A DNA stretch of 64,000 bases from Hydractinia symbiolongicarpus (lineage: Eukaryota; Cnidaria; Hydrozoa; Anthoathecata; Hydractiniidae): assembly GCF_029227915.1 (NCBI RefSeq), contig NC_079880.1, forward strand, positions 25,413,501 to 25,477,500, in the 5' to 3' direction. Shown piece by piece: positions 5,241 through 64,000 of the stretch. The position numbers and the translations under genes are program-made. The first letter of the stretch is position 1. Each line of letters starts with the position of its first letter. The notes beneath the pieces are model-generated. The model ran no database searches. It had not been told where the DNA came from and saw only the letters and a list, made by a program, of their open reading frames with translations.

Positions 5241-6819
5241 TCAAGAACACATAGCTGGTTCATCATATTCTTCAAGTTTGATTGAAACTATTCAAGTACT
5301 TTCTATATAGAATGTTTTTCTGTACAATCCAAACTGATAGTTTTGGGAATAATATATAGTACGGAAATTTAAATTATAAATTACAAATTCGTTGCTTACA
5401 ATGAACTATCAGTTTTGCAGTTTGTTAAAAACTGAGGACACGTGTGTTCAACATAATCTATTCTCAAAAATAATAATATTTACAGTTCTTCTTTCGTACT
5501 TGTTTTCGACATGCTCTCCATCGTATAGCGTGTACTCCATTGTAGTGTGTATTCGCTATAACACAGTTGTAAGTTGATTTACGTCTGAATTGGTAAGAGA
5601 ATCAACCAGCGCAAAAGAGATAGGAGACAGAAACAAATTGAGTCATCAATTCAAAAAGAAGTTGTTTATATTCTTAAAGATTGCAGTTTTTACATTGCAA
5701 ATTCTTTTTGTTAGGGGTGGTTATTATACTTTGGATGATGAATTACCTGAAGGCGATGTAACAAAGTATTTTAAAAACTGCACTGAAGTGAGCTGTTTGT
5801 TGCAATGTGAAAGAGAGAAACAATGTGACCGAATCATGTTTAAGTTACACAATAAACAGATGAGAAATGGAGAGTGTTGGTTTGTTAAGCAGAACACAAC
5901 TGATAAAGGAGAAGAGATGCAGACATTAAAAAAAGACAGATCCACTAAAAGTTATCAAAAGGTTCGAAAATGTGTAGATTTTCTTTTGTTATCATTCTTA
6001 TATTCTATAAAACTTAAACCTCAGAATTAACAGAAGGTTTTCCTCTCAAAGTATTATGATCAGTATTTGCGCTCTTTTTTACAGACAGGTTATTATAATA
6101 AAAACGCACAAATTACTTCAATGGTTTTAGAAAAAAGACTAATGTTTTTTCCACCAAAATTTGCATAGATGCTTGACCAAATTTTTAACAAAAAATTTGA
6201 CTGTACAAATGGTTCCAACATTTACCTTCGCATTTTTCCCTTCTTCTTTTTGCTATCCCCTTTTCTATATTTTAAAATTAAAATGCCTCGTAAGGAATAA
6301 AGAATCTTCAACATATCATCAACATATAAAGAAAATAAAAAAATAGAATTTTGACCAAATAAACAAGTGTAAAATGGTTTAAATAAATTTGATATTTAGA
6401 CGACACCTAAATGCCCATCAAAAGCGAAGTGCTACTATGGAAACTGCGCCATTACCAACGATTTGAAAGGATACAACTGTGAATGTCAAGGTAGATGAAG
6501 TTTTTCACAAAATGAGGTTTTTTTAATTTTTTTTTTATAAGTTACTACATTATTTAACAGTGAGAATAGATGTGTTGGTTTGGCAATGAAATTTTAAACA
6601 ACAAATATTAGCTTGACAATAATACGAAGACTGTGTTTATCTGTGTGTACGTGTGTGTACGGGCATAGTAGATGTCTTCATTTTCCTTTGATGTAGCTGA
6701 AAAAGTCTGTCTTAAATGTTAAATTTTCTGATGTTACGTCACGGCGACGACGTCATTAATGTAACGTCAAAAGCATTTTTAAATTTAGCGAAGATATTAC
6801 ATTGCACTTTCATGTTTAA

Positions 6820-7305
6820 AGCGGCGTTTATCAGATTTTATCCGACAGATCCTGTCTGAAAGTTTTTTTCATTAAATATACATATCAGATTCTTGAGATT
6901 TCATTTGTATTATTGAAAAGGCAAAATCAACGAAAACAGGGAAAGAAATGATTTTGGCTCATTTCTAAAATGTCGCAAATGCGAATGATTGTCTTTGCTT
7001 TGTTGTTTCCCCTTTCATAAGTTTAATAAAAATTTCTGTTTTTGACATTTTGATTTATTGAAAGATGTTTCACCTCTTGTGCTATTGACATTATATAAAT
7101 TCTAAAATCAGTAATATTTAATAAAGCAAACTTTTCATTGGTTAATTCTCTTCAGACAAAATCCGAAAAGTTAAAGTTTTTCAACTTTGTGTCTGACGAC
7201 AAATTTGACAAAATTAAGAAGCTTCCAATTTTTTTGTTTACATTATCAGATTTTGTCGAATAAGATAAATCAGTCAGACAAAATCTGATAATGTAAACGC
7301 TGATT
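6820..7305. repeat. Foldback/MITE in intron 2, copy A
   Basis: A perfect 22-nt inverted repeat (7236-7257 against 7277-7298, core CATTATCAGATTTTG) forms a hairpin. A related TTATCAGATTTTATCCGACAG motif near 6828 suggests a larger foldback element of about 480 bp. The same structure is present in copy B at about 16640-17195, so the insertion predates the duplication. Confidence 0.6.
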
Positions 7306-7604
7306 AAGGCTTTATAACTTGGAAACGACTGGAATAACTGATGTTCTCGGGAGGGGATAAAGGCGATTTCATCGGGCAAGCTCGACCGGAAGATTTTGCT
7401 ACATTTTTATAATCCATTTTGAGAGGCTTTAAATCAATTAACAAAACCTCGCTGCAACAAAATGAACATGTTCATCCATGTTGCATTATGACATGTTGAA
7501 ACATGCATGTCCAATGAATGCGTGAAATTTTGCATCGAATTGTTCGACAGCTCCTAACAGTTCTTATGTACTCTTAGCTAAAATTAAACCGATTACATTC
7601 AAAT

Positions 7605-7925
7605 CATTTTTCAATTGAGTTAATTCTAACAAAATTTATAGGAACTATTACTTCCTACCACGAAGGTCACTTCTAACCATCAACTGATTTACCTTCAACC
7701 ATCAATCAAGTTCCCTTTTAACCATTAATTGAGTTACTTTAAACCATTAGTTAAGTTACTTCCATCCATAAATTAAGTCATTTCGAACCATTAATTAAGT
7801 TCTTCCAACCGTTAATTGAGTTACTTTAACCAGCAATGGAGTTACTCAACCCTCAATTAAGTTCTTCCAACCATCAAGGTTACTTTCAACAATTAATTAA
7901 GTTACTTCCAACCATCAGTTAACTT
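7605..7925. repeat. Intronic minisatellite, unit about 22-25 bp, copy A
   Basis: Imperfect repeats of AACCATTAATTAAGTTACTT run up to the start of the last exon, about 14 units. The orthologous array in copy B lies at about 17505-17815. Unit number and base changes differ slightly between copies. Confidence 0.75.
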
Positions 7926-8339
7926 GATTGTTATTTATAATACAAATTATTTTACAAATGATTGGATTTTATTAAAAAGTAATGTCTGCTTTGGAGCAAG
8001 GGCAAACCAATATGGAACATTCAACATACAATATGATGCATATATGACTGGCATAAAATTGGTGCATGTTGGAGGAATTGGGGTGACATGTTTGGAGAGT
8101 GGACCATTGACAAAATGGGGATGCGATTATATAAACCAGTTTTCCATAGGGTATGTTAGTGCTGTTATAACCAATTATCAAAACAACGTGCTTTATCCAT
8201 ACATGGGTCATCTTGGGAAAGGTTTTTATTCCGTGCCAGGATACAACGCCAATTCGCCATACTTGATCTTTGGTGGAAGGAATTACACTGGTTACAAAAA
8301 CGAAGAGTTGCGAATACAATATGGTGAAACAATGATGGG

Positions 8340-8580
8340 AAACCCGCGCAAAAAATCCTTACTACTTTTGTTCACGATGAGGTCGAGCGGTTGGAAGTAA
8401 TTCGTCCAATTGTTTGGAATAGAAACCATCTTTCCATTTGATTTGAGACTTTGAGAATGCAGAAACACAGACCCAAACTGTACCTGAAACCCAAGACATT
8501 GGAAATGCTCAAATAATTCCAGAAACACAAAATGTTATTGTCATTGATGATTAGACCTTTATATTCATGAAAGAAATTTA
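8340..8580 (+). other. Foreign tail joined to copy A last exon
   Basis: Sequence after base 8340 no longer matches copy B. It contains frame-shifted coding-like fragments: one reads FVHDEVERLEVIRPIVW, and another ends IIPETQNVIVIDD before a stop at about 8554. This looks like a relic of another protein, perhaps from a mobile element, fused by deletion or insertion. I do not recognise it. Confidence 0.45.
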
Positions 8581-15199: not shown

Positions 15200-15485
15200 C
15201 GGGTATACCACATTTTTTAAGTTTGATTGAAAATATTCAAATACTTTCTATATAAATATTTTTCTGTTCATTTATATTCAAAATCAATATATCAAAAACA
15301 TATCGCTGGTTCACCACAATTTTCAAGTTCGATTCAAAGTACTTTCTATATTTAAGTGTTTCTCTGTATTCCATTCATATCCGTAATACAACTTAAATAA
15401 TTTATAATAAGTTTCTATTTGTTTCTTTTAAACTTGATAAGACAAAAACAGTTTAACAAGCAAAACTCACCAATTCAAAAAGAAG

Positions 15486-18295
15486 ATGTTTATATTCTTA
15501 AAGATTGCAGTTTTTACATTGCAAATTCTTTTTGTTTGGGGTGGTTATTATACTTTGGATGATGAATTGCCCGACGGCGGTGTAACAAAGTATTTTAAAA
15601 ACTGCACTGAAGTGAGCTGTTTGTTGCAATGTGAAAGAGAGAAACAATGTGACCGAATCATGTTTAAGTTACACAATAAACAGATGAGAAATGGAGAGTG
15701 TTGGTTTGTTAAGAACACAACTGATAAAGGGGAAGAGATGCAGACTTTGAAAAAAGACAAATCCATTAAAAGCTATCAAAAGGTTCAAAAATGTGTAGAT
15801 TTTCTTTTGTTATCATTCTTATATTCTATAAAACTTAAACCTCAGAATTAACGTAGACAGGTTTTCCTCTCAAAGTATTATGATCAGTATTTGCGCTCTT
15901 TTTTACAGACAGGTTATTATAATAAAAACGCACAAATTACTTCAATGGTTTTAGAAAAAAGACTAATGTTTTTTCCACCAAAATTTGCATAGATGCTTGA
16001 CCAAATTTTTAACAAAAAATTTGACTGTACAAATGGTTCCAACATTTACCTTTGCATTTTTCCCTTCATTTTTTGCTATCCCCTTTTCTATATTTTAAAA
16101 TGCCTCGTAAGGAATAAAGAATCTTCAACATATCATAAACATATAAAGAAAATAAAAAAATAGAATTTTGACCAAATAAACAAGTGTAAAAAGGTTTAAA
16201 TAAATTTGATATTTAGACGACACCTGAATGCCCATCAAAAGCGAAGTGCTACTATGGAAACTGCGCCATTACCAACGATTTGAAAGGATACAACTGTGAA
16301 TGTCAAGGTAGATGAAGTTTTTCACAAAATGAGGTTTTTTTAATTTTTTTTTTATAAGTTACTACATTATTTAACAGTGAGAATAGATGTGTTGGTTTGG
16401 CAATGAAATTTTAAACAACAAATATTAGCTTGACAATAATACGAAGACTGTGTTTATCTGTGTGTACGTGTGTGTACGGGCATAGTAGATGTCTTCATTT
16501 TCCTTTGATGTAGCTGAAAAAGTTCTGTCTTAAATGTTAAATTTTCTGATGTTACATCACGGCGACGACGTCATTAATGTAACGTCAAAAGCATTTTTAA
16601 ATTTAGCGAAGATATTACATTGCACTTTCATGTTTAAAGCGGCGTTTATCAGATTTTATCCGACAGATCCTGTCTGAAAGTCTTTTTCATTAAATATACA
16701 TATCAGATTCTTGCGATTTCATTTGTATCAGATGTCGAATTTTTTTTCATTTTTTTTTCAACATGGTTCCTTCCGCGCGAAGGCGTGTTAGCTGTTTTAT
16801 TGAAAAGGCAAAATCAACGAAAACAGGGAAAGAAATGATTTTGGCTCATTTCTAAAATGTCGCAAATGCGAATGATTGTCTTTGCTTTGTTGTTTCCCCT
16901 TTCATAAGTTTAATAAAAATTTCTGTTTTTGACATTTTGATTTATTGAAAGATGTTTTCCCTCTCGTGCTATTGACATTATATGAATTCTAAAATCAGTA
17001 ATATTTAATAAAGCAAACTGTTCATTGGTTAATTCTCTTCAGACAAAATCTGAAAAGTTGAAGTTTTTCAACTTTGTGTCTGACGACAATTTTGACAATA
17101 TTAAAAAGCTTCCAATATTTTTGTTTACATTATCAGATTTTGTCGAATAAGATAAATCAGTCAGACAAAATCTGATAATGTAAACGCTGATTAAGGCTTT
17201 ATAACTTGGAAACGACTGGAATAACTGACATTCTCGGGAGGGGATAAAGGCAATTTCATCGGGCAAGCTCGACCGGAAGATTTTGCTACATTTTTATAAT
17301 CCATTTTGCATGTAGAGGCTTTAAATCAATTAACAAAACCTCGCTGCAACAAAATGAACATGTTCATCCATGTTACATTATGACATGTTGAAACATGCAT
17401 GTCCAATGAATGCGTGAAATTTTGCATCGAATTGTTCGACAGCTCCTAACAGTTCTTATGTATTCTTAGCTAAAATTAAACCGATTACATTCAAATCATT
17501 TTTCAATTGAGTTACTTCTAACAAAATTTATAGGAACTATTACTTTCTACCACGAAGGTCACTTCTAACCATCAACTGATTTACCTTCAACCATCAATCG
17601 AGTTACTTTAAACCATTAATTGAGTTACTTTAAACCATTAGTTAAGTTACTTCCATCCATAAATTAAGTCATCTCGAACCATCAATTAAGTTCTTCCAAC
17701 CGTTAATTGAGTTACCTTTAACCAGCAATGGAGTTGCTCAACCGTCAATTAAGTTCTTCCAACCATCAAGGTTACTTTCAACCATTAATTAAGTTACTTG
17801 CAACCATCAGTTAACTTTATTGTTATTTATAATACAAATTATTTTGCAGATGATTGGATTTTATTAAAAAGTAATGTCTGCTTTGGAGCAAGGGCAAACC
17901 AATATGGAACATTCAACATACAATATGATGCATACATGACTGGCATAAAATTGGTGCATGTTGGAGGAAATGGAGTGACATGCTTGGAGAATGTAGCATT
18001 GACAAAATGGGGATGCGATTCTATAAACCAATATTCTAACAAGTATGTTAGTGTTGTTATAACCAATTATCAAAACAACGTGCTTTACCCATACATGGGT
18101 CATCTTGGGGAAGGTTTTTATTCCGTACCAGGATACAACGCGAACTCGCCATACTTGATCTTTGGTGGAAGGAATTACACTGTTTACAGAAACAAAGAGT
18201 TGCGAATACATTATGGTGAAACATTAATGGGATACCACCAAAAAAACAATGGTACATCTTGCGCAGATATTTATGCAAAGTTGTGTGACGTTTAA
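15486..18295 (+). CDS. Secreted PAN-EGF protein with cnidarian-type C-terminal domain, copy B
   Basis: The model is join(15486..15782, 16217..16307, 17850..18295), 277 residues, with phases 0 and 1 kept. A signal peptide (MFIFLKIAVFTLQILFVWG) is followed by a PAN/Apple-like module with NCTEVSCLLQCEREKQCD and GECWFVK. Exon 2 encodes one EGF-like domain (CPSKAKCYYGNCAITND to CECQG). Exon 3 encodes a C-terminal domain of about 145 residues: WILLKSNVCFGARANQYG, IKLVHVGGNGVTC, TKWGCDSINQ, ELRIHYGETL, and a closing NNGTSCADIYAK. I associate this domain with cnidarian extracellular proteins, but its function is unknown. The first donor (AAG|GTTCAA) is weak. The protein is probably secreted and may act in adhesion or recognition. 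Confidence 0.8.
17505..17815. repeat. Intronic minisatellite, copy B
   Basis: Imperfect AACCATTAATTAAGTTACTT-type units precede the last exon, orthologous to 7605-7925. The array ends about 35 bp before the AG acceptor at 17848-17849. Confidence 0.75.
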
Positions 18296-25909: not shown

Positions 25910-37584
<11,675 letters not shown>

Positions 37585-44900: not shown

Positions 44901-47144
44901 GCTTAATATATTCGTGAGTACAGCTTGTTTTCCAATTAAGTACGTAATTTTTGTGTAACGATTTATCGTGAATTTTTTTCACTGATAATGAAAAGTTTAT
45001 CAGTTGTACTCTAATGTGGCTTACCGTTTTTATGTCATTGAAAACTAAGCTTAAGGCGTTAACTAATAATAATGCGTTTTGTAACTGAATATTATGCTAA
45101 AATCTACTTTCTAGAGTCAAAAATTAGCTGAAAAAATAGTCCACCACAGTCGACCTGTCATTGCAGTTGGAAAGAAAACGTTTTATCAACAGGTGAAACA
45201 AACAAGAGATGAGGCGTACTGGTAAGAGGTTTTTCTTTACAATTCTTTTCCGTAACATTTTCCACTAATTTCACCTATTTTTCATTATGTCATAACTAAA
45301 ATAGATATGCACAAAAAGGAAAAATTGATGTGGAATTGTCAACTAAGTGGGGGAGGGGGTGAAGTTTTCGACTTAATGAGGAAGGAGGTGGAATTGGTAA
45401 CTAAAGGGAGTAAGGAGGTGGAATTGATAACTAAAGTGAGGAAGGAGGTGAAATTGATAACTAAAGTGAGGAAAGGAGGTGAAATTGATAACTAAAGTGA
45501 GTAAGGAGGTGGAATTGATAACTAAAGTGAGGAAGGAGTTGGAATTGATAACTAAAGTGAGTAAGGAGGTGAAATTGATAACTAAAGTGAGGAAGGAGTT
45601 GGAATTGATAACTAAAGTGAGGAAGGAGGTGGAATTGATAACTAAAGTGAGAAAAGGAGGTGAAATTGATAACTAAAGTGAGGAAAGGAGGTGAAATTGA
45701 TAACTAAAGTGAGGAAAGGAGGTGAAATTGATAACTAAAGTGAGGAAAGGAGATGGAATTGATAACTAAAGTGAGGAAGGAGGTGGAATTGATAACTAAA
45801 GTGAGGAAGGAGGTAAAAATGATAACTAAAGTGAGATAAGGAGGTGAAATTGATAACTAAAGTGAGGAAAGGAGGTGAAATTGATAACTAAAGTGAGGAA
45901 GGAGGTGGAATTGATAACTAAAGTGGGGAAGAAGGTGGAATTCATAACTAAAGTGAGTAAGGAGGTGGAATTGATAACTAAAGTGAGTAAGGAGGTGAAA
46001 TTGATAACTAAAGTGCAGAAGGAGGTGAAATTGATAACTAAAGTGAGGAAGGAGGTGGAATTGATAACAAAAGTGAGGAAGGAGGTGAAATTGATAACTA
46101 AAGTGAGTAAGGAGGTGAAATTGATAACTAAAGTGCAGAAGGAGGTGAAATTGATAACTAAAGTGAGTAAGGAGGTGAAATTGATAACTAAAGTGAGGAA
46201 AGGAGGTGAAATTGATAACCAAAGTGAGTAAAGAGGTGAAATTGATAACTAAAGTGAGGAAAGGAGGTGAAATTGATAACTAAAGTGAGTAAGGAGGTGG
46301 AATTGATAACTAAATTGAGTAAGGAGGTGAAATTGATAACTAAAGTGCAGAAGGAGGTGAAATTGATAACTAAAGTGCAGAAGGAGGTGAAATTGATAAC
46401 TAAAGTGCAGAAGGAGGTGAAATTGATAACTAAAGTGCAGAAGGAGGTGAAATTGATAACTAAAGTGGAGAAGGAGGTGAAATAGAAAACTAAAGTGCAG
46501 AAGGAGGTGAAATTGATAACTAAAGTGCAGAAGGAGGTGAAATTGATAACTAAAGTGCAGAAGGAGGTGAAATTGATAACTAAAGTGGAGAAGGAGGTGA
46601 AATAGATAACTAAAGTGCAGAAGGAGGTGAAATTGATAACTAAAGTGGGGAAAGGAGGTGGAAGTGATAACTAAAGTGGGGAAAGGAGGTGGAAGTGATA
46701 ACTAAAGTGGGGAAAGGGTGTAGGATTGCAATACCCCCTGCTAAGTATAAAAATATTTCAAAAAAAATTTCTTTTATTACAAGTTCCAATAAAAGTTAGG
46801 AAAAGTCACAAAATTTTAGCACTCAGTTACACGCCGAATAAAAGTTATGCCAAGTCAAAGAGCGGTGCGAAAACTTAGTTTAATAGGCTACGACATAGAA
46901 AACTTATAAGCTTTACTTTTATTCTTTTGACCTAAATTCTTACATTTCGACAAGGAAGGGCCACCTGTCAGTGTCTTTATATAACATTTTTGGCTGTAAA
47001 GTTACTTCTCTCTTGCTTGTTCCTTTAATTCTTTTTTGTAGCCTTGCAGAGAACGTTATGGTTGAAAATTTGAAACATGCTGATTCACAGGAAGGAATTG
47101 ATGCTTTTTTCACCAAACGAAAGCCATCGTGGACGGATGAATGA
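38933..47144 (+). CDS. ECHDC3: ECHDC3-like mitochondrial enoyl-CoA hydratase domain protein
   Basis: Exons: 38933-38980, 39100-39236, 39505-39640, 42621-42692, 43464-43497, 43728-43812, 44205-44314, 44557-44615, 45115-45221 and 47042-47144. They give 296 residues (human about 303), all phases consistent. Exon 1 ([16 protein letters not shown]) and the start of exon 2 make a basic, acid-free presequence suited to mitochondrial import. The crotonase fold shows [25 protein letters not shown] (oxyanion hole), [35 protein letters not shown] and LLTGESISA. The family is linked to fatty-acid and insulin-response metabolism, but its reaction is poorly known. Exon 1 is the least certain part. Introns hold MITEs and a large minisatellite. 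Confidence 0.92.
39781..42175. mobile_element. Candidate non-autonomous element or inverted MITE pair in ECHDC3 intron 3
   Basis: About 65 bp at the left (CACCCTCGTCCCCAGGGTTTT to CCCTGGTATTG) recur inverted at the right (about 42110-42175, ending GGGGACGAGGGTG). Similar short words (GGAGTGC) lie just outside both ends but are offset by about 3 bp, so a target-site duplication is only tentative. The interior has no transposase. It could be one 2.4-kb element or two MITEs of the family seen at 54539-54634. Confidence 0.45.
41027..41420. repeat. Foldback repeat with GGAATGGAA / TTCCATTCC arms
   Basis: The left arm (GAAAATTTTCCATGGAACG, GAGGAACAGGACAGAAAA) pairs imperfectly with the right arm (TTTTTCTGTTCCTTTCCATTCC, near 41360-41410). 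The interior includes CCATGCTAGTATGGGTTGG, a hairpin word common in invertebrate repeats. Confidence 0.55.
43909..44132. repeat. Direct tandem duplication of about 110 bp in ECHDC3 intron 6
   Basis: Both units start GCATCTGACCAATCGTT, continue through CTTGAAAAAA and TTTGTTTACTTTTTTA, and end CAATATTTGCCAGTT. They differ at scattered positions. The duplication contains no exon. Confidence 0.8.
45355..46715. repeat. 30-bp minisatellite in the last ECHDC3 intron
   Basis: About 45 units with the core AATTGATAACTAAAGTGAG plus a variable (G)AAGGAGGT spacer fill most of the 1.8-kb intron. Most units are 30 bp; some 31-bp units shift the frame. Unit subtypes form runs (GAGGAAGG, GAGTAAGG, GCAGAAGG), showing local amplification. 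The unit lacks stops on both strands, so spurious ORFs arise. Confidence 0.93.
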
Positions 47145-58865: not shown

Positions 58866-58869
58866 CGAA

Positions 58870-59090
58870 AATTACAAAGTGGGGCAAGACACTATTACAA
58901 AGTGGGGCAGCTCCGAAAATTACAAAGTGGGGCAACGATGAATTACAAAGTGGAGCAGCTCCGAAATTACAAAGTGGGGCGAAAGTTATTACAAAGTGGG
59001 GCAGGTATTACAAAGTGGGGCAAGATAATTACAAAGTGGGGTAGATATTACAAAGTGGGGCAATTATTACAAAGTGGGGCATAACATACC
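58870..59090 (+). repeat. Irregular minisatellite, unit core TTACAAAGTGGGGCA, block 1
   Basis: About ten near-identical cores occur, separated by variable spacers (for example CTCCGAAAA), so the period changes between about 15 and 27 bp. The constant core with variable spacers differs from an ordinary slippage array. Confidence 0.85.
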
Positions 59091-59224
59091 TGCAAGCATC
59101 ACTTTTACTAACTTCTAATTTCAGTCCCTTTTTCATTGTGCCTAGCTTTAGATTTATAGCGCGCGACCCCCGTTCTATATTTTTATAGGAGCGCCTGAAA
59201 AGTTATTTGTGTGCAACATAAACC

Positions 59225-59520
59225 AAAAATTACAACGTGGGGCAGCGTGGAAAATACAAAGTGATGCAAAAATTATTACAAAGTGGGGCAGGTATTACAA
59301 AGTGGGGTAAGACATTATTACAAAGTGGGCTAATTATTACAAAGTGGGGTTGTATTACAAAGTGGGGCAGGTTTTACAAAGTGGGGGGGTTGGTGTTACA
59401 AAGTGGGTGTGCGTGTTACAAAGTGGGTGTGCGTGTTACAAAGTGATGTTGGTGTTACAAAGTGGTGTTTGGTGTTACAAAGTGAGGTAATTATTACAAA
59501 GTGGGTGTGCGTGTCGTTAA
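59225..59520 (+). repeat. Irregular minisatellite, unit core TTACAAAGTGGGGCA, block 2
   Basis: About fifteen further cores occur, with variants such as TTACAAAGTGGGTGTGCG. The array ends about 105 bp before the left end of the TTAA transposon. A unique 130-bp segment separates it from block 1. Confidence 0.85.
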
Positions 59521-59626
59521 GTGGAAATATGTCCTTATTTGGAAATTCATTCAAACGAAAAGAAAAATAGTGATCAATTATGCATGTGTGGTTGCAGCAT
59601 TGTTTTCAGTGTGAACAAATGTTTAA

Positions 59627-59862
59627 AGGGAATATAGCATGTTTTATAAATATTTGCATATAAAAACTTCATATAGCACGAAACAATAATTCAGCATTAA
59701 TATATCTTAAAAAGTAATTCTTACGCACAATATTGTTCTTTAAAGTTTAACCTTCGCCACGAGAGTGGCCTTCTTCGACCGCCATGATAGTTTCTGATGA
59801 AAACACGATCAAGTGCGATATAGCATAATCGATTTACTGTGACGTAAGCAATTTTATAGAAA
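59627..59862 (+). repeat. Left terminal inverted repeat of the TTAA element
   Basis: About 235 bp, beginning AGGGAATATAGCATG. It contains GCCTTCTTCGAC (59768) and ACGTAAGCAATTTTATAG (59842). It probably includes the promoter of the THAP gene, whose ATG lies about 160 bp further in. Confidence 0.8.
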
Positions 59863-60023
59863 ATACAGAAGCCTTCCTCTTCACACACACCGCACGCGAA
59901 GTTTGTTCTTAAACCTATTAATAATTTATAATAGAAACTTGAATTTATTTTATACAATTTAACCCCCGTCGATATATTTTAAAAACATTTCTGCTCAAAA
60001 ACTTTTTTTCGATATTTCTTAAA

Positions 60024-61148
60024 ATGGCGTGGTGTGCTGCTGTAGGTTGTACTAATCATACGGCTAATAATCCCGAGAAAGTTCAGTTTTTTAAATTGCC
60101 GTCAAATGAAGATACGCGCAAAAAGTGGATACATGCTTTGCGGAATAAAAATTTACCTAAAAGGGTCTTTGTTTGTTCAAAACATTTTGAAGAAAAATGC
60201 TTTGATCCAAGTTGGGACATGCAACACCAGATATTACCGCGAAAAATCCCGAGAATGCTGTTAAAAAATGCCTTTCCAACAATATTTTGTTTTCAAGAGC
60301 AACCAAAGGAAAGAAAGGCCTCAGTTCGAAGGGCCCAATGCAGAGAAAGAGAAGAGGTAATTTATAGGTATTTGTTAATAGGAGTCACATGTCGAACATA
60401 TACTCCATGTTATCTAAAATTTTAGGTCATAGAAATGGCCGTAGTGATGGAATTGCATGAAGAAGAAGTGGAAGCTAGCAACACATGTGGAACACAAACT
60501 GATTCTTCTATTGTCGTTAGTAAACCAAAAGTTGTCTTGCGATCTATTGGTACCCAGACTTCTCCAATTAGTGTCAGAAATATGGGGTATCAAGTTAATA
60601 TGCGACCTTGACACAGAAGTCAATGTGTACAAGTAACGCCAGATACAACAAACATTCACCATCAAACACGTCTTGACGGTAATTTAAATTCATTCCTAAA
60701 TTTTGTTTCTTTTTTCCTAGACCAAGGCGACTGGGACAAAGACGACGATGTTGATGATTGGATCATAACTTAAATGTGGATAGAGAACAGGTACGAATAC
60801 GTCTTACTTTTTTGTTTTAATTACGTACAGCAAATATATAATCTGAAAACTAATCGTTTAGGAGACATCTAAAAAAGCTGAAAAAGAGAGCAATGTGAAA
60901 CCAATTTTTCGCATTGCCTATAGCAAACCAACAAAACGTTTTGTCGCCAAAAAGGAAAAGTCGCAAAAGATTATAATTACCTTGTTGACATGCTCGGTAA
61001 TATAATCACACGAGTTGAAGAAAATAGAAAGGTAACCACGGAAAAGCGCAGCAAACGTAAGCTCAGTTTGACTGTAGCACTATCAGAGAGAGAAGACCGT
61101 GAAGTTATCATTGAGCAATCAACTAAGTATAGCAGATTAAAACTGTAG
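60024..61148 (+). pseudogene. THAP-domain protein gene with a nonsense codon and frameshifts
   Basis: Exons: 60024-60356, 60426-60678, 60721-60790 and 60862 onward. Residues 1-90 form a THAP zinc finger with C4, C9, C51 and H54, the invariant W35 and P26, and the closing AFPTIF. This type of domain binds DNA and is found in P-element and Kolobok transposases. A glutamate-rich segment and GTQT repeats (CGTQTDSS, IGTQTSP) follow. An in-frame TGA (60609-60611) interrupts MRP/HRSQCVQVTPDTT. The frame then shifts near 60760 (VDD to DHNLNVDREQ) and near 60980 (KEKSQK to DYNYLVDMLGNI), ending at TAG 61148. A 172-residue THAP product could still be made. Single-base assembly errors could explain the shifts but not the TGA so easily. 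Confidence 0.75.
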
Positions 61149-61244
61149 TGACTTTTTATTTTTTTAGCTTATATAATTATTTACATACTATTTTCATACA
61201 TATATTATTTACATGGATATTTTACACGTATACTAATGAACGGT

Positions 61245-61950
61245 TTAGTCGCTTTGGTCTTCGTGAGCTGCAAATTGCCACACCATTTCAATCTCGGAAA
61301 CATTCGTTCCTCCCTCTCTAAACCCAGTGTAATTACCACTTTCAGAAGGGAAGGCTGTTCTTATTTTAGCAACGACACAAGCAGGAATGACTCTCCGCAC
61401 ACCTCGTCCCAACCTAGTATGGATGAACCAACTAAACTGTCTGTACGATGCGTAGCGATATGATCTAAAATAGGTTATATATTTCATTTATGGATAATAT
61501 AATATATTACATGTTCTTATATAACTCTACTTACTGGCTAGGTACGTGTTCCCTATCACATGGTAACGATGCATTTTCCCTGTCATATAACGATACCAAA
61601 GCAGTCCACAGAACACCCCTGTCCAGCATCACGTTTGAAAAGCTATTGTGCTCAGTGATACATCTGCAATCTAAAAAAGGTTTGGGTATAGATTGTATGT
61701 GTAATTGTTTCACTGTTTATTGTGTAAATAGAAATAAACTAAAGCAAACCGTCTAATTTGAAATATTTTATTTCGTCTATCTCGTGGCAGCATATGCACT
61801 CTCTTTCCGTATCCAATACGACGCAGTGCCCACAAGTACACCAACCATCGACCCCAAAGAAAAATCAGAATATTCTTCAGGTTCAGAATGTTCTTCATCA
61901 TCCTGAAATTCTGGTTCAAACTGAAAACCAAGTACCGTTGGTTGATCCAT
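61245..61950 (-). CDS. P2X7 cytoplasmic ballast-domain-like protein
   Basis: Exons: complement(join(61245..61464, 61535..61670, 61750..61950)), from the ATG at 61950. Exon 1 has an acidic start (MDQPTVLGFQFEPEFQDDEE), then in a shifted frame DGWCTCGHC and ERECICCHEIDEI. Exon 2 encodes CRCITEHNSFSNVMLDRGVL and WTALVSLYD. Exon 3 encodes YASYRQFSWFIHTRLGRG, VRRVIPACVVAKIR and FPSESGNYTGF. This cysteine and motif order matches the zinc- and nucleotide-binding ballast of P2X7 and its stand-alone invertebrate relatives. No channel domain is present. One base appears missing at a GGGG run near 61847, since exon 1 is 201 nt where phase needs 3n+1. It is either an assembly error or a frameshift. The gene converges with the THAP gene, 96 bp between stops. 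Confidence 0.78.
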
Positions 61951-62046
61951 GATAAAATTTAATATGAATGTTTGTTATTTACTTTCTCAAAACATTACAT
62001 ATTTTTTCTAAAAAGAACCCTCTACTATTACGGGGGCTCACTTTTT

Positions 62047-62282
62047 TTTCTATACAATTGCTTACGTAAGTCGCATAATTACGCATACTAATGTGATTGT
62101 CCAGATCTCTGACCGCGTTAAAACGACCTCGTTGAAGAAGGCGACTGTAATGTAAACATGTGAAACTTTTTTATGTTGTTTGTTTTTTTTGTTTATCTTC
62201 AAAACATAAGAACTAGATATTCTTTTATGACTTTGAAAAGTGGTTTATATATGTAAAAATAATTTTTCACGCCATATTCCCT
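62047..62282 (-). repeat. Right terminal inverted repeat of the TTAA element
   Basis: The inverted counterpart of 59627-59862. It contains the complement of GCCTTCTTCAAC (62131-62142) and of ACGTAAGCAATTGTATAG (about 62050-62067). It probably includes the promoter of the ballast-like gene, whose ATG is about 97 bp further in. Confidence 0.8.
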
Positions 62283-62286
62283 TTAA

Positions 62287-64000
62287 AAAGGTTTGACCTG
62301 GTGTTGATTTTTTTTCTGTATAAAATTTGTATTGATTAAAAATACAAAGACACTTAAGAAATAAGGATAGTTTCGTTTGTTCTGATATTTACATAGAAAT
62401 GCACCTGCTTAATGAAACTTTAAAAGATAAACAAAAACCAAACGTTGTTCTGATGTGCTTTGCTATATTAACAAACTTTTAGTCGAAGAAAAAGATGAAT
62501 CAATTAGAAAAGGTTCGAGTTGTAGAAATTGGTGCTGTATGAACAAAATAAACAAAAATTAACAAAACAAAATGGTTATATCAATCGTCTTTAAATGTTT
62601 TTGGCTTTAATATTTTGGTTGTTATGTTCTTGGAAAAGCTTCTGATATCTCTAGGTATGAAAGGATTCTCCCGACTGTCGTTATCGTTCAAAAACATATA
62701 GCATATCTACCAGGAAACTGCACTTCGAACTTTTCCAAACATATGATGCGATGGTGTCCCTCTGTAAGATACACACGCAAAGTATTTTTGCTCATGACAA
62801 GAATTAATTTACATTCTTTTTAAGTTTGGTTAGGTATGTGTTTCCATTATTTTATTTGTGTTCTATGCTTCGATCGAACTCAATGTACTTCAAGAGTGCG
62901 ATTGATCGGACCAATTGTACATTACACGTACACGTTGTGACAAATGACATCCGTCACTCGTTTGCTTCCTAAATAAATACGAATAAATTTAATAAACCAC
63001 AAAAAGAATTCACCTGCTAAGAAAAATGTGATACTTTTTAGTTTTTACTTTCTGAGCACTAATCAGTTTTCTCATCCAGAGTCGGCTTTTTCAGTATTTT
63101 TTTTTTCTTCAATTTTAGTCGCACTTTTGTCACTTTTTATCACTTCATCAGAAAATTTGTGGCTTCTACCAAGCTTCTTATCTCCAGAAAATTGAAAATC
63201 CAATTTCTTGAACACAGTTTATACACGGCTTTCCCGTTATCAGTTGTCGAATCGTTGGATCGATTACTATGGATTAAGATCCATAGTAATCGATCCAATA
63301 TGAGCCATTGATTCGACATATACATTTGCAATAATCCTTCAGCTTGTGATAAATTGTCACCAGCAATAGTACAAACGAAAGATTAGAGAATGTGACAATA
63401 CTGTAAATTTCGTCACTCGTTGTCAAATTATTTCGAACCAAGATTCCCAGGTCGAGCAATCAAGTCCAAGGTAAACACCACGCCGCCGTAATTTTTTTGA
63501 GAAAAACCATACCTAACAAAACATTAAATGGCATCGCTATGACTCTCTTAGAAGTTTAGATACTTATTTAATTAGACAGAAAAGGGATCACACTAACCAA
63601 ATTCCCGTGCACCACTTTGGGAACTTTTTCTCCTCTTTTTTAACGCCTGAAGAAGACTTTAACTTAAAATTTAAGTAGTTTATAGTTTGTGAGACGAACG
63701 GTGCACGGTACTGGGCGATAGAACCAACTGTCAAGTACGTAGCTAGTAGCGAAGCGTTGCCACGAGGTTGGAAAGATGGCATACTTTCGCCAAAAATAAT
63801 GTTTTTTTTAATTTTGTGTGTTTTGTTCGACGAAATAACTCGAAATCCATAACACACATGTATAACATATTTATATATTTAAAAAGTAGAAAAGTAGATC
63901 GTTTTAATACTTTTTATTTCAGTATAAGATTAAAACAATACAAAAAAAGTTTCAATAACTTAAAAAATGATACAAATACAAAATTTCAAAAAAAATTGTG
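62287..64000. other. Intergenic, no gene seen
   Basis: Open frames on the minus strand at 63140-63459 and 63588-63857 have no recognised similarity, and the first overlaps a palindrome. Nothing else is supported. Confidence 0.4.
63255..63298. repeat. Perfect 20-bp inverted repeat with a 4-nt loop
   Basis: TTGGATCGATTACTATGGAT and its exact complement flank TAAG. Partial pairing (GTCGAATC with GATTCGAC) continues outside. This is a likely hairpin or the core of a small foldback element. Confidence 0.9.

Follow-up and report, generated by a model that had tools for sequence, protein, structure and literature searches.

The window analysed here, a stretch of 64,000 nucleotides (C6:25413501-25477500) from the 480.9-Mb, 76-contig genome of Hydractinia symbiolongicarpus, contains at positions 59627-62282 an element with a gene for a THAP-domain protein at one end and, at the other, a gene for a protein related to the ballast domain of P2X7. 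In the Kol0 group of Kolobok transposons, the transposase is accompanied by a second protein, KolX, which resembles the P2X7 ballast (PMC9587614), and we use the name KolX for the second gene. A first-pass annotation of the window had proposed this pair of genes, TTAA on both sides and shared termini, and all three were recovered. TTAA is read directly at 59623..59626 and at 62283..62286, as expected of target-site copies, the duplication itself being shown for a sister family (L031, see below), and AGGGAATAT lies directly inside TTAA at both ends. In an inverted-repeat search, TTTAAAGGGAATATAGCATG (59622-59641) pairs with 62268-62287 at 90% (match I2), which places the left terminal inverted repeat, AGGGAATATAGCATG, at 59627..59641 on the plus strand (transposase end) and the right one at 62268..62282 on the minus strand (KolX end).

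Further inside are two mirrored blocks, both nearly equidistant from the element ends, in agreement with the first-pass annotation. Block 1 (match I6, 16 nt, 88%) occupies 59764..59779 on the plus strand and 62131..62146 on the minus strand. Block 2, ACGTAAGCAATTTTATAGAAAA, occupies 59842..59863 (plus strand; match I1 extends to 59868) and 62046..62067 (minus strand; I1 from 62041) at a depth of 220-241, and could be a promoter element or a transposase site. The suggestion of terminal repeats of about 235 bp did not hold, as the ends consist of short conserved blocks and the remaining end sequence aligns poorly.

The transposase gene is read on the plus strand. Its THAP exon lies at 60024..60356 (PF05485, E=1.8e-16), with the exon end placed by a splice signal, and is followed by a second exon at 60426..60678, whose ends are likewise predicted from splice signals and which contains an in-frame TGA (60609-60611) that is an arginine codon in the long copy L013. 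A third exon starts at 60721 and runs to 60757, where an internal deletion junction (about 60757/60758) interrupts it, and a last-exon remnant with a broken frame extends over 60862..61148, with a stop at 61146-61148. The KolX gene, on the minus strand, comprises a first exon at 61746..61950, with an N-terminal GFQFEP motif, a middle exon at 61536..61675 with approximate ends, and a last exon at 61245..61466 recognized by Pfam and phmmer. A frameshifting gap lies near 61866 in the first exon; locus L012 is about 16 residues longer at this point. The last exon alone matches PF20478 with E=1.1e-7, and the three exons joined, with an X at the frameshift, with E=8e-18; in a phmmer search against the PDB the product matched rat P2X7 (6u9v, E=9.5e-8). 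No P2X domain was found by Pfam on the window proteins. Both genes are broken in this copy.

Longer copies of the element contain a DDE transposase

A genome search with the window ends gave 15 left-end and 16 right-end matches, including those of the window itself. We opened the 13 other left-end places and eight further stretches, of which five are right-end places, two extend copies already opened and one is adjacent. Of the right-end places, three weak ones fall outside this set. Four copies, L013, L015, L016 and L018, have sequence that the window element lacks at its position 1135/1136, corresponding to window 60757/60758. L013 measures 4,645 bp including both TTAA, about 1.9 kb more than the window copy, and its extra DNA, which contains the stretches ALDGQCDTPGHN, ATDRH, DPWH and VFHS, completes the THAP gene. 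The joined L013 product matches in Pfam both PF05485 (E=1.7e-13) and PF20700, a Mutator-like transposase family (E=4.4e-8). The longer copies with a transposase between the same ends that the first-pass annotation had suggested looking for therefore exist, and its remark that no DDE transposase is visible stands for the window copy only: since the extra 1.9 kb of L013 turns the THAP gene into a DDE transposase gene, it is the THAP gene that is the missing transposase, and the window keeps its 5' part. In L013, the THAP-DDE transposase gene and the KolX gene run inward from opposite ends and meet tail to tail. L013 too looks dead, because its last catalytic position reads Lys, a replacement shared with L032, where L015, L016, L018 and L020 have Glu.

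Several different internal deletions occur among the copies, that of the window being one. A test of whether they preferentially spare KolX, made on six hand-entered deletion patterns, one of which (L026) lacks the transposase end, is not relied on; its product, computed with a uniform model and a hand-set KolX boundary, was 0.04. The ends were also checked for recurrence without the genes, the observation that would have pointed to host genes hit by chance, and were seen in this form only as fragments or partial copies: L019 (at about 75%) and L021 (49 bp) are relics, each no more than a short fragment of an end, and L017, likewise a relic, retains the transposase end, with no KolX half in the 7.5 kb retrieved.

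Two side observations concern these copies. L009, L010 and L011 (C13:21.81-21.87 Mb) share the same internal deletion and identical bases just outside both ends, for which reason they look like segmental duplicates and not three insertions. At L015 5308-5719, a KolX-like piece of the L033 type adjoins the window-family copy, which may reflect insertion of a Kolobok family into another or next to it.

KolX and transposase genes are paired across the genome

A six-frame search with PF20478 yielded 465 candidates, of which the best 150 were scored, all 150 above the curated cut-off. These matches are at exon level, not merged into genes, and fall on contigs C1 to C15. Among them are sets with equal scores, for example ten at 58.1 bits, and such identical scores indicate young families. 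Eight different-looking representatives, L030-L037, were picked by their ballast match. In seven of the eight, a related transposase lies downstream of the ballast gene on the opposite strand, and five of the eight have terminal repeats beginning TTAA-AG. The L031 copy sits inside a satellite array, and its flanks joined by a single TTAA correspond to an unoccupied satellite unit, gapless and with 99.2% identity over 124 bp; because the empty unit carries one TTAA, TTAA was duplicated on insertion. The same local test found no empty site for L030, L034, L036 and L037.

A search with the transposase of one family (L036) gave 426 candidates, of which 70 were scored, resulting in 73 matches and 69 merged loci. 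A ballast match lies within 3 kb of 38 of the 69 loci, comparing the best 70 of 426 with the best 150 of 465. All 38 pairs are convergent, with gaps of 42-504 bp and a chance expectation of about 0.002 per locus. The recurring copies and these genome-wide pairs bear out the proposal that the ballast domain is carried by a mobile element and has multiplied with it, and that both genes belong to the element.

Some loci have features of their own. L035 contains a ballast gene at 1698-2279 and a weak terminal-repeat candidate, and may be a deletion derivative, a solo copy or a domesticated gene. At L039 1962-2719, the first and middle exons of KolX are present and no last exon is recognizable, and the transposase frame and 24-bp repeats look intact. 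In the 5.9-kb L030 family, a cysteine-rich frame is located upstream of KolX within the same ends (L030 1077-1415 and about 1640-1740), and it recurs in L040 from 1272 and in L041 from 1185. This frame has no Pfam match, and by eye we take it to be CXC-like. Scans of four transposase-side pieces of the L030 family showed no THAP domain, and the DNA-binding part in this family may sit beside KolX. A scan of viral contigs with the ballast protein found no relative.

KolX is conserved between families together with the transposase

Distances between KolX proteins and between transposases were compared for eight families, the window family being represented by the window KolX and the L013 transposase, and the L030, L032 and L033 proteins being partly incomplete. 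The two sets are strongly correlated (Mantel r=0.885), a value reached by 16 of 40320 permutations. In the core of the KolX last exon (48 codons, seven families, 21 pairs), the proportion of silent differences (pS) ranges from 0.61 to 0.92 and that of replacement differences (pN) from 0.17 to 0.42; for the transposase core, the corresponding values are 0.65-1.15 and 0.14-0.47. With silent differences near saturation and pN low, a working KolX protein has been retained across families, and the codon comparison shows purifying selection on its core at this level.

The motif [PG][FY]x[FY]EP, defined after seeing the sequences, is found at eight of ten KolX N-termini, the exceptions being L030 and L032. 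All seven zinc-ligand cysteine positions are present in six of nine aligned element proteins, the window gene among them; in L030, L032 and L035 the set of seven is incomplete or not fully visible. In rat P2X7, guanine-nucleotide binding has been assigned to R546, H547, R574, R578 and K583 (PMC7016195). The KolX proteins keep R546 in eight of nine cases and R578 and Y550 in nine of nine, and H547, R574 and K583 in none, a pattern matching that reported for invertebrate stand-alone domains (PMC7016195). A structure model of KolX had only P2X7 among its top 14 PDB matches, which at E values of 0.13-0.94 adds little to the predicted relationship.

A mirrored subterminal block lies upstream of both genes

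The end pair of the window element, compared at depth 61-320, scored 39, and none of 56 cross-family end pairs reached this value. In five of the eight families with both ends (window, L031, L034, L036 and L039), the best local match between the two ends beyond the terminus is located at depth 160-241, and in these families at most three of 56 cross-family pairs score as high. When ends were permuted among families, 8 of 40320 pairings reached the score of the true one, itself included. For L037, only a 9-bp ACGTCAGTG match was found, which is at chance level (45 of 56 cross-family pairs score at least as high), and L030 and L038 showed no mirrored block. In the five families, the block is situated upstream of both start codons. 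Its KolX-end copy always contains ACGT, and its transposase-end copy contains ACGT in three families and ACAT in two; in the window family and L039 it also holds a TATA-like TATAG.

We take the block, with its ACGT core, to resemble a basic leucine zipper (bZIP) site of the cyclic-AMP response element (CRE) type. Over 12 ends of six families, the CRE-like motif gave a mismatch sum of 14, matched by none of 1000 shuffles, the motif having been chosen after looking; a held-out test on four ends of two families gave 55 of 1000, which is weak. Upstream of KolX, L035 has an exact TGACGTCA, and L032 and L033 have nothing within one mismatch. We lean towards a shared promoter element, and the idea that each gene fires inward from its own mirrored end fits the block. 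Nearly as likely, and somewhat below an even chance in our estimate, the block would be a site bound by the transposase through THAP: its equal depth at both ends would suit a synaptic complex, and each end of the P element has internal 10-bp sites to which its transposase binds (PMC7776569), but the CRE-like sequence with its ACGT core, the TATAG and the position upstream of both start codons speak for a promoter.

Assignment to Kolobok and the role of KolX

Kolobok transposons are characterized by TTAA duplication, 5'-RR..YY-3' termini (purine-purine and pyrimidine-pyrimidine), a DDE transposase with a C/DxxH signature between the second D and the last E, and a zinc finger between that signature and the last E in which the third Cys is the most conserved (PMC9587614). 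Besides TTAA on both sides of the window copy and the empty site in L031, the window termini are 5'-AG..CT-3', of the RR/YY type, as in all seven other elements with both ends found. D[PVI]WH occurs in seven of eight families, all those in which this stretch was read (all but L033), and is absent from the deleted window copy. LEV[FY]HS is found in L031, L033, L034, L036 and L037 (as LEVFHS in L037), with LEAFHN across a join in L030. In the aligned families, C-x-H is present in eight of eight and the preceding CxxC is complete in five of eight. The second protein with its PF20478 match is that of the Kol0 group. The window element is very probably a non-autonomous, internally deleted and mutated Kolobok copy of the Kol0 type.

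Two other origins were considered. The TTAA target would also suit piggyBac, and piggyBac families whose C-terminal part is KolX-like have been described (PMC9587614), but the element termini are of the Kolobok type, the transposase is a THAP protein with a PF20700-type DDE domain and DxxH, no piggyBac transposase family matched the joined L013 product in Pfam up to E=1, and the window gene keeps the seven cysteine positions, most of which those piggyBac proteins lack (PMC9587614); a piggyBac origin is thus most improbable. Even less credence, practically none, is due to the idea that two unrelated host genes happen to be flanked by TTAA and by an inverted repeat that arose by chance: it fits a single-copy view of the window only, whereas the same ends and genes recur elsewhere with different flanks, and every one of the 38 adjacent pairs has the same arrangement.

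Several observations weigh against a Kol0 element with a maintained KolX. The L036 transposase has no PF20700 match up to E=0.1. L035 has a ballast gene and no detectable transposase, and its terminal repeat is only a weak candidate; for L032 and L033 the search for terminal repeats found none. Among the matches listed, 31 of the 69 transposase loci lack a ballast match, and only 39 of the 150 ballast matches have a transposase locus within 3 kb; in the two unpaired loci examined out of the 31, KolX is nevertheless present, in one case lacking a recognizable last exon, and the 24-bp terminal repeats are perfect. A model of the single-exon KolX is poor (mean predicted local distance difference test score, pLDDT, 58). 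Within the window family, KolX substitutions are spread across codon positions, and replacement codons exceed silent ones, as in dead copies. Because such a spread is expected after insertion, selection within the family is uninformative.

In the mechanism that we propose, a working copy elsewhere would make transposase and KolX from its two ends, each gene being expressed from its own end by way of the mirrored block. The transposase, supplied in trans by other copies and bound to the ends through THAP, would move the element into TTAA, and deleted copies such as that of the window would be moved too. As KolX is kept and constrained beside the transposase across divergent families, it probably does something for the element. 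On the basis of this conservation we favour, with some reserve, a KolX that acts as a partner which the transposase needs or from which it benefits strongly. Alternatively, KolX could face the host, for example acting against silencing or regulating expression; P2X7, and possibly nanor, show the domain serving a cell without a transposase (PMC9587614). The matched divergence of KolX and transposase suits either role and a physical partner well, and we consider a host-facing function distinctly less probable, though not remote. It is very unlikely that KolX rides along as a passenger, retained through linkage alone. The neutral-looking change within the window family would agree with it, but it is opposed by the constraint between families and by the presence of KolX, partial in one case, at both opened unpaired transposase loci; the seven transposase-bearing loci of L030-L037, having been chosen by ballast match, are not counted against it.

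If KolX is a transposase partner, a bolder version can be formulated by analogy, in which it would be a separate, zinc-stabilized, guanine-nucleotide-responsive subunit of the transpososome, docked on the transposase by [PG][FY]x[FY]EP and performing in trans the task of the GTP-binding insertion of P-element transposase, and the GDP-binding tail of P2X7 would be a transpososome switch reused on a channel. The THAP-bearing P-element transposase cannot pair and join its ends without a GTP that sits in a helical insertion domain (PMC7776569), and the P2X7 ballast binds guanine nucleotides (PMC7016195), which makes a guanine-nucleotide role worth testing. Three of the five rat contact residues are absent from KolX, so this role should not be assumed, and we regard the bolder version as speculative and doubtful.

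Sequence neighbourhood of the element

Just left of the element, at 58869-59514, lies a tandem array of a ATTACAAAGTGGGGCA-type unit. Elsewhere in the window, 5643-8344 and 15467-18236 are about 95-97% identical and have similar reading frames, indicating a recent duplication. A 44-copy array of a 30-bp unit occupies 45381-46709, and a 97-copy AT repeat occupies 30089-30282.

Implications and comparison with known systems

The first-pass annotation had proposed that the ballast domain travels on a mobile element, which could have supplied it for later fusion to a P2X channel. This inference is sound and already in print, as Kojima and Bao (2022) concluded that P2X7 arose by fusion with KolX (PMC9587614). 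In the texts it covered, a literature search found no further paper making the link. Our results add a genome not named in PMC9587614, together with genome-wide pairing, in support of a ballast domain of the immune receptor P2X7 derived from a transposon accessory protein, and they make the role of KolX a testable question. Fewer than 10 ZCD genes per species were reported in 2020 (PMC7016195), compared with 150 ballast matches scored here as the best of 465; perhaps transposon copies went uncounted there. The five P2X-domain matches of the genome form one cluster (C13:8.33-8.34 Mb); the nearest of the best 150 ballast matches is about 0.67 Mb away, and at this distance there is no sign of a P2X-ballast fusion here.

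The closest described system is the Kol0 element Kolobok-1_XT, which has the same TTAA duplication, RR..YY termini, DDE transposase with C/DxxH, zinc finger, and KolX with a ballast domain (PMC9587614). The likeness is by description only, and the window copy differs as a deleted, broken derivative. The convergent gene order, the mirrored block, the N-terminal KolX motif and the copy number do not appear in the passages of PMC9587614 consulted here; in its main text, no word starts with THAP, promoter, opposite or GTP, and Hydractinia is not mentioned. The cytoplasmic ballast of P2X7, encoded by exon 13, shares with KolX the PF20478 match, the seven cysteines in most proteins, and R546, Y550 and R578, whereas KolX stands alone, has an N-terminus of its own in place of a channel, and lacks H547, R574 and K583. 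The P-element and THAP9 transposases have the same THAP domain at the N-terminus. In the P element, a GTP-binding insertion lies inside the transposase and target duplications are 8 bp long (PMC7776569), whereas the Hydractinia elements target TTAA and encode the ballast domain, which binds guanine nucleotide in rat P2X7, as a protein of its own.

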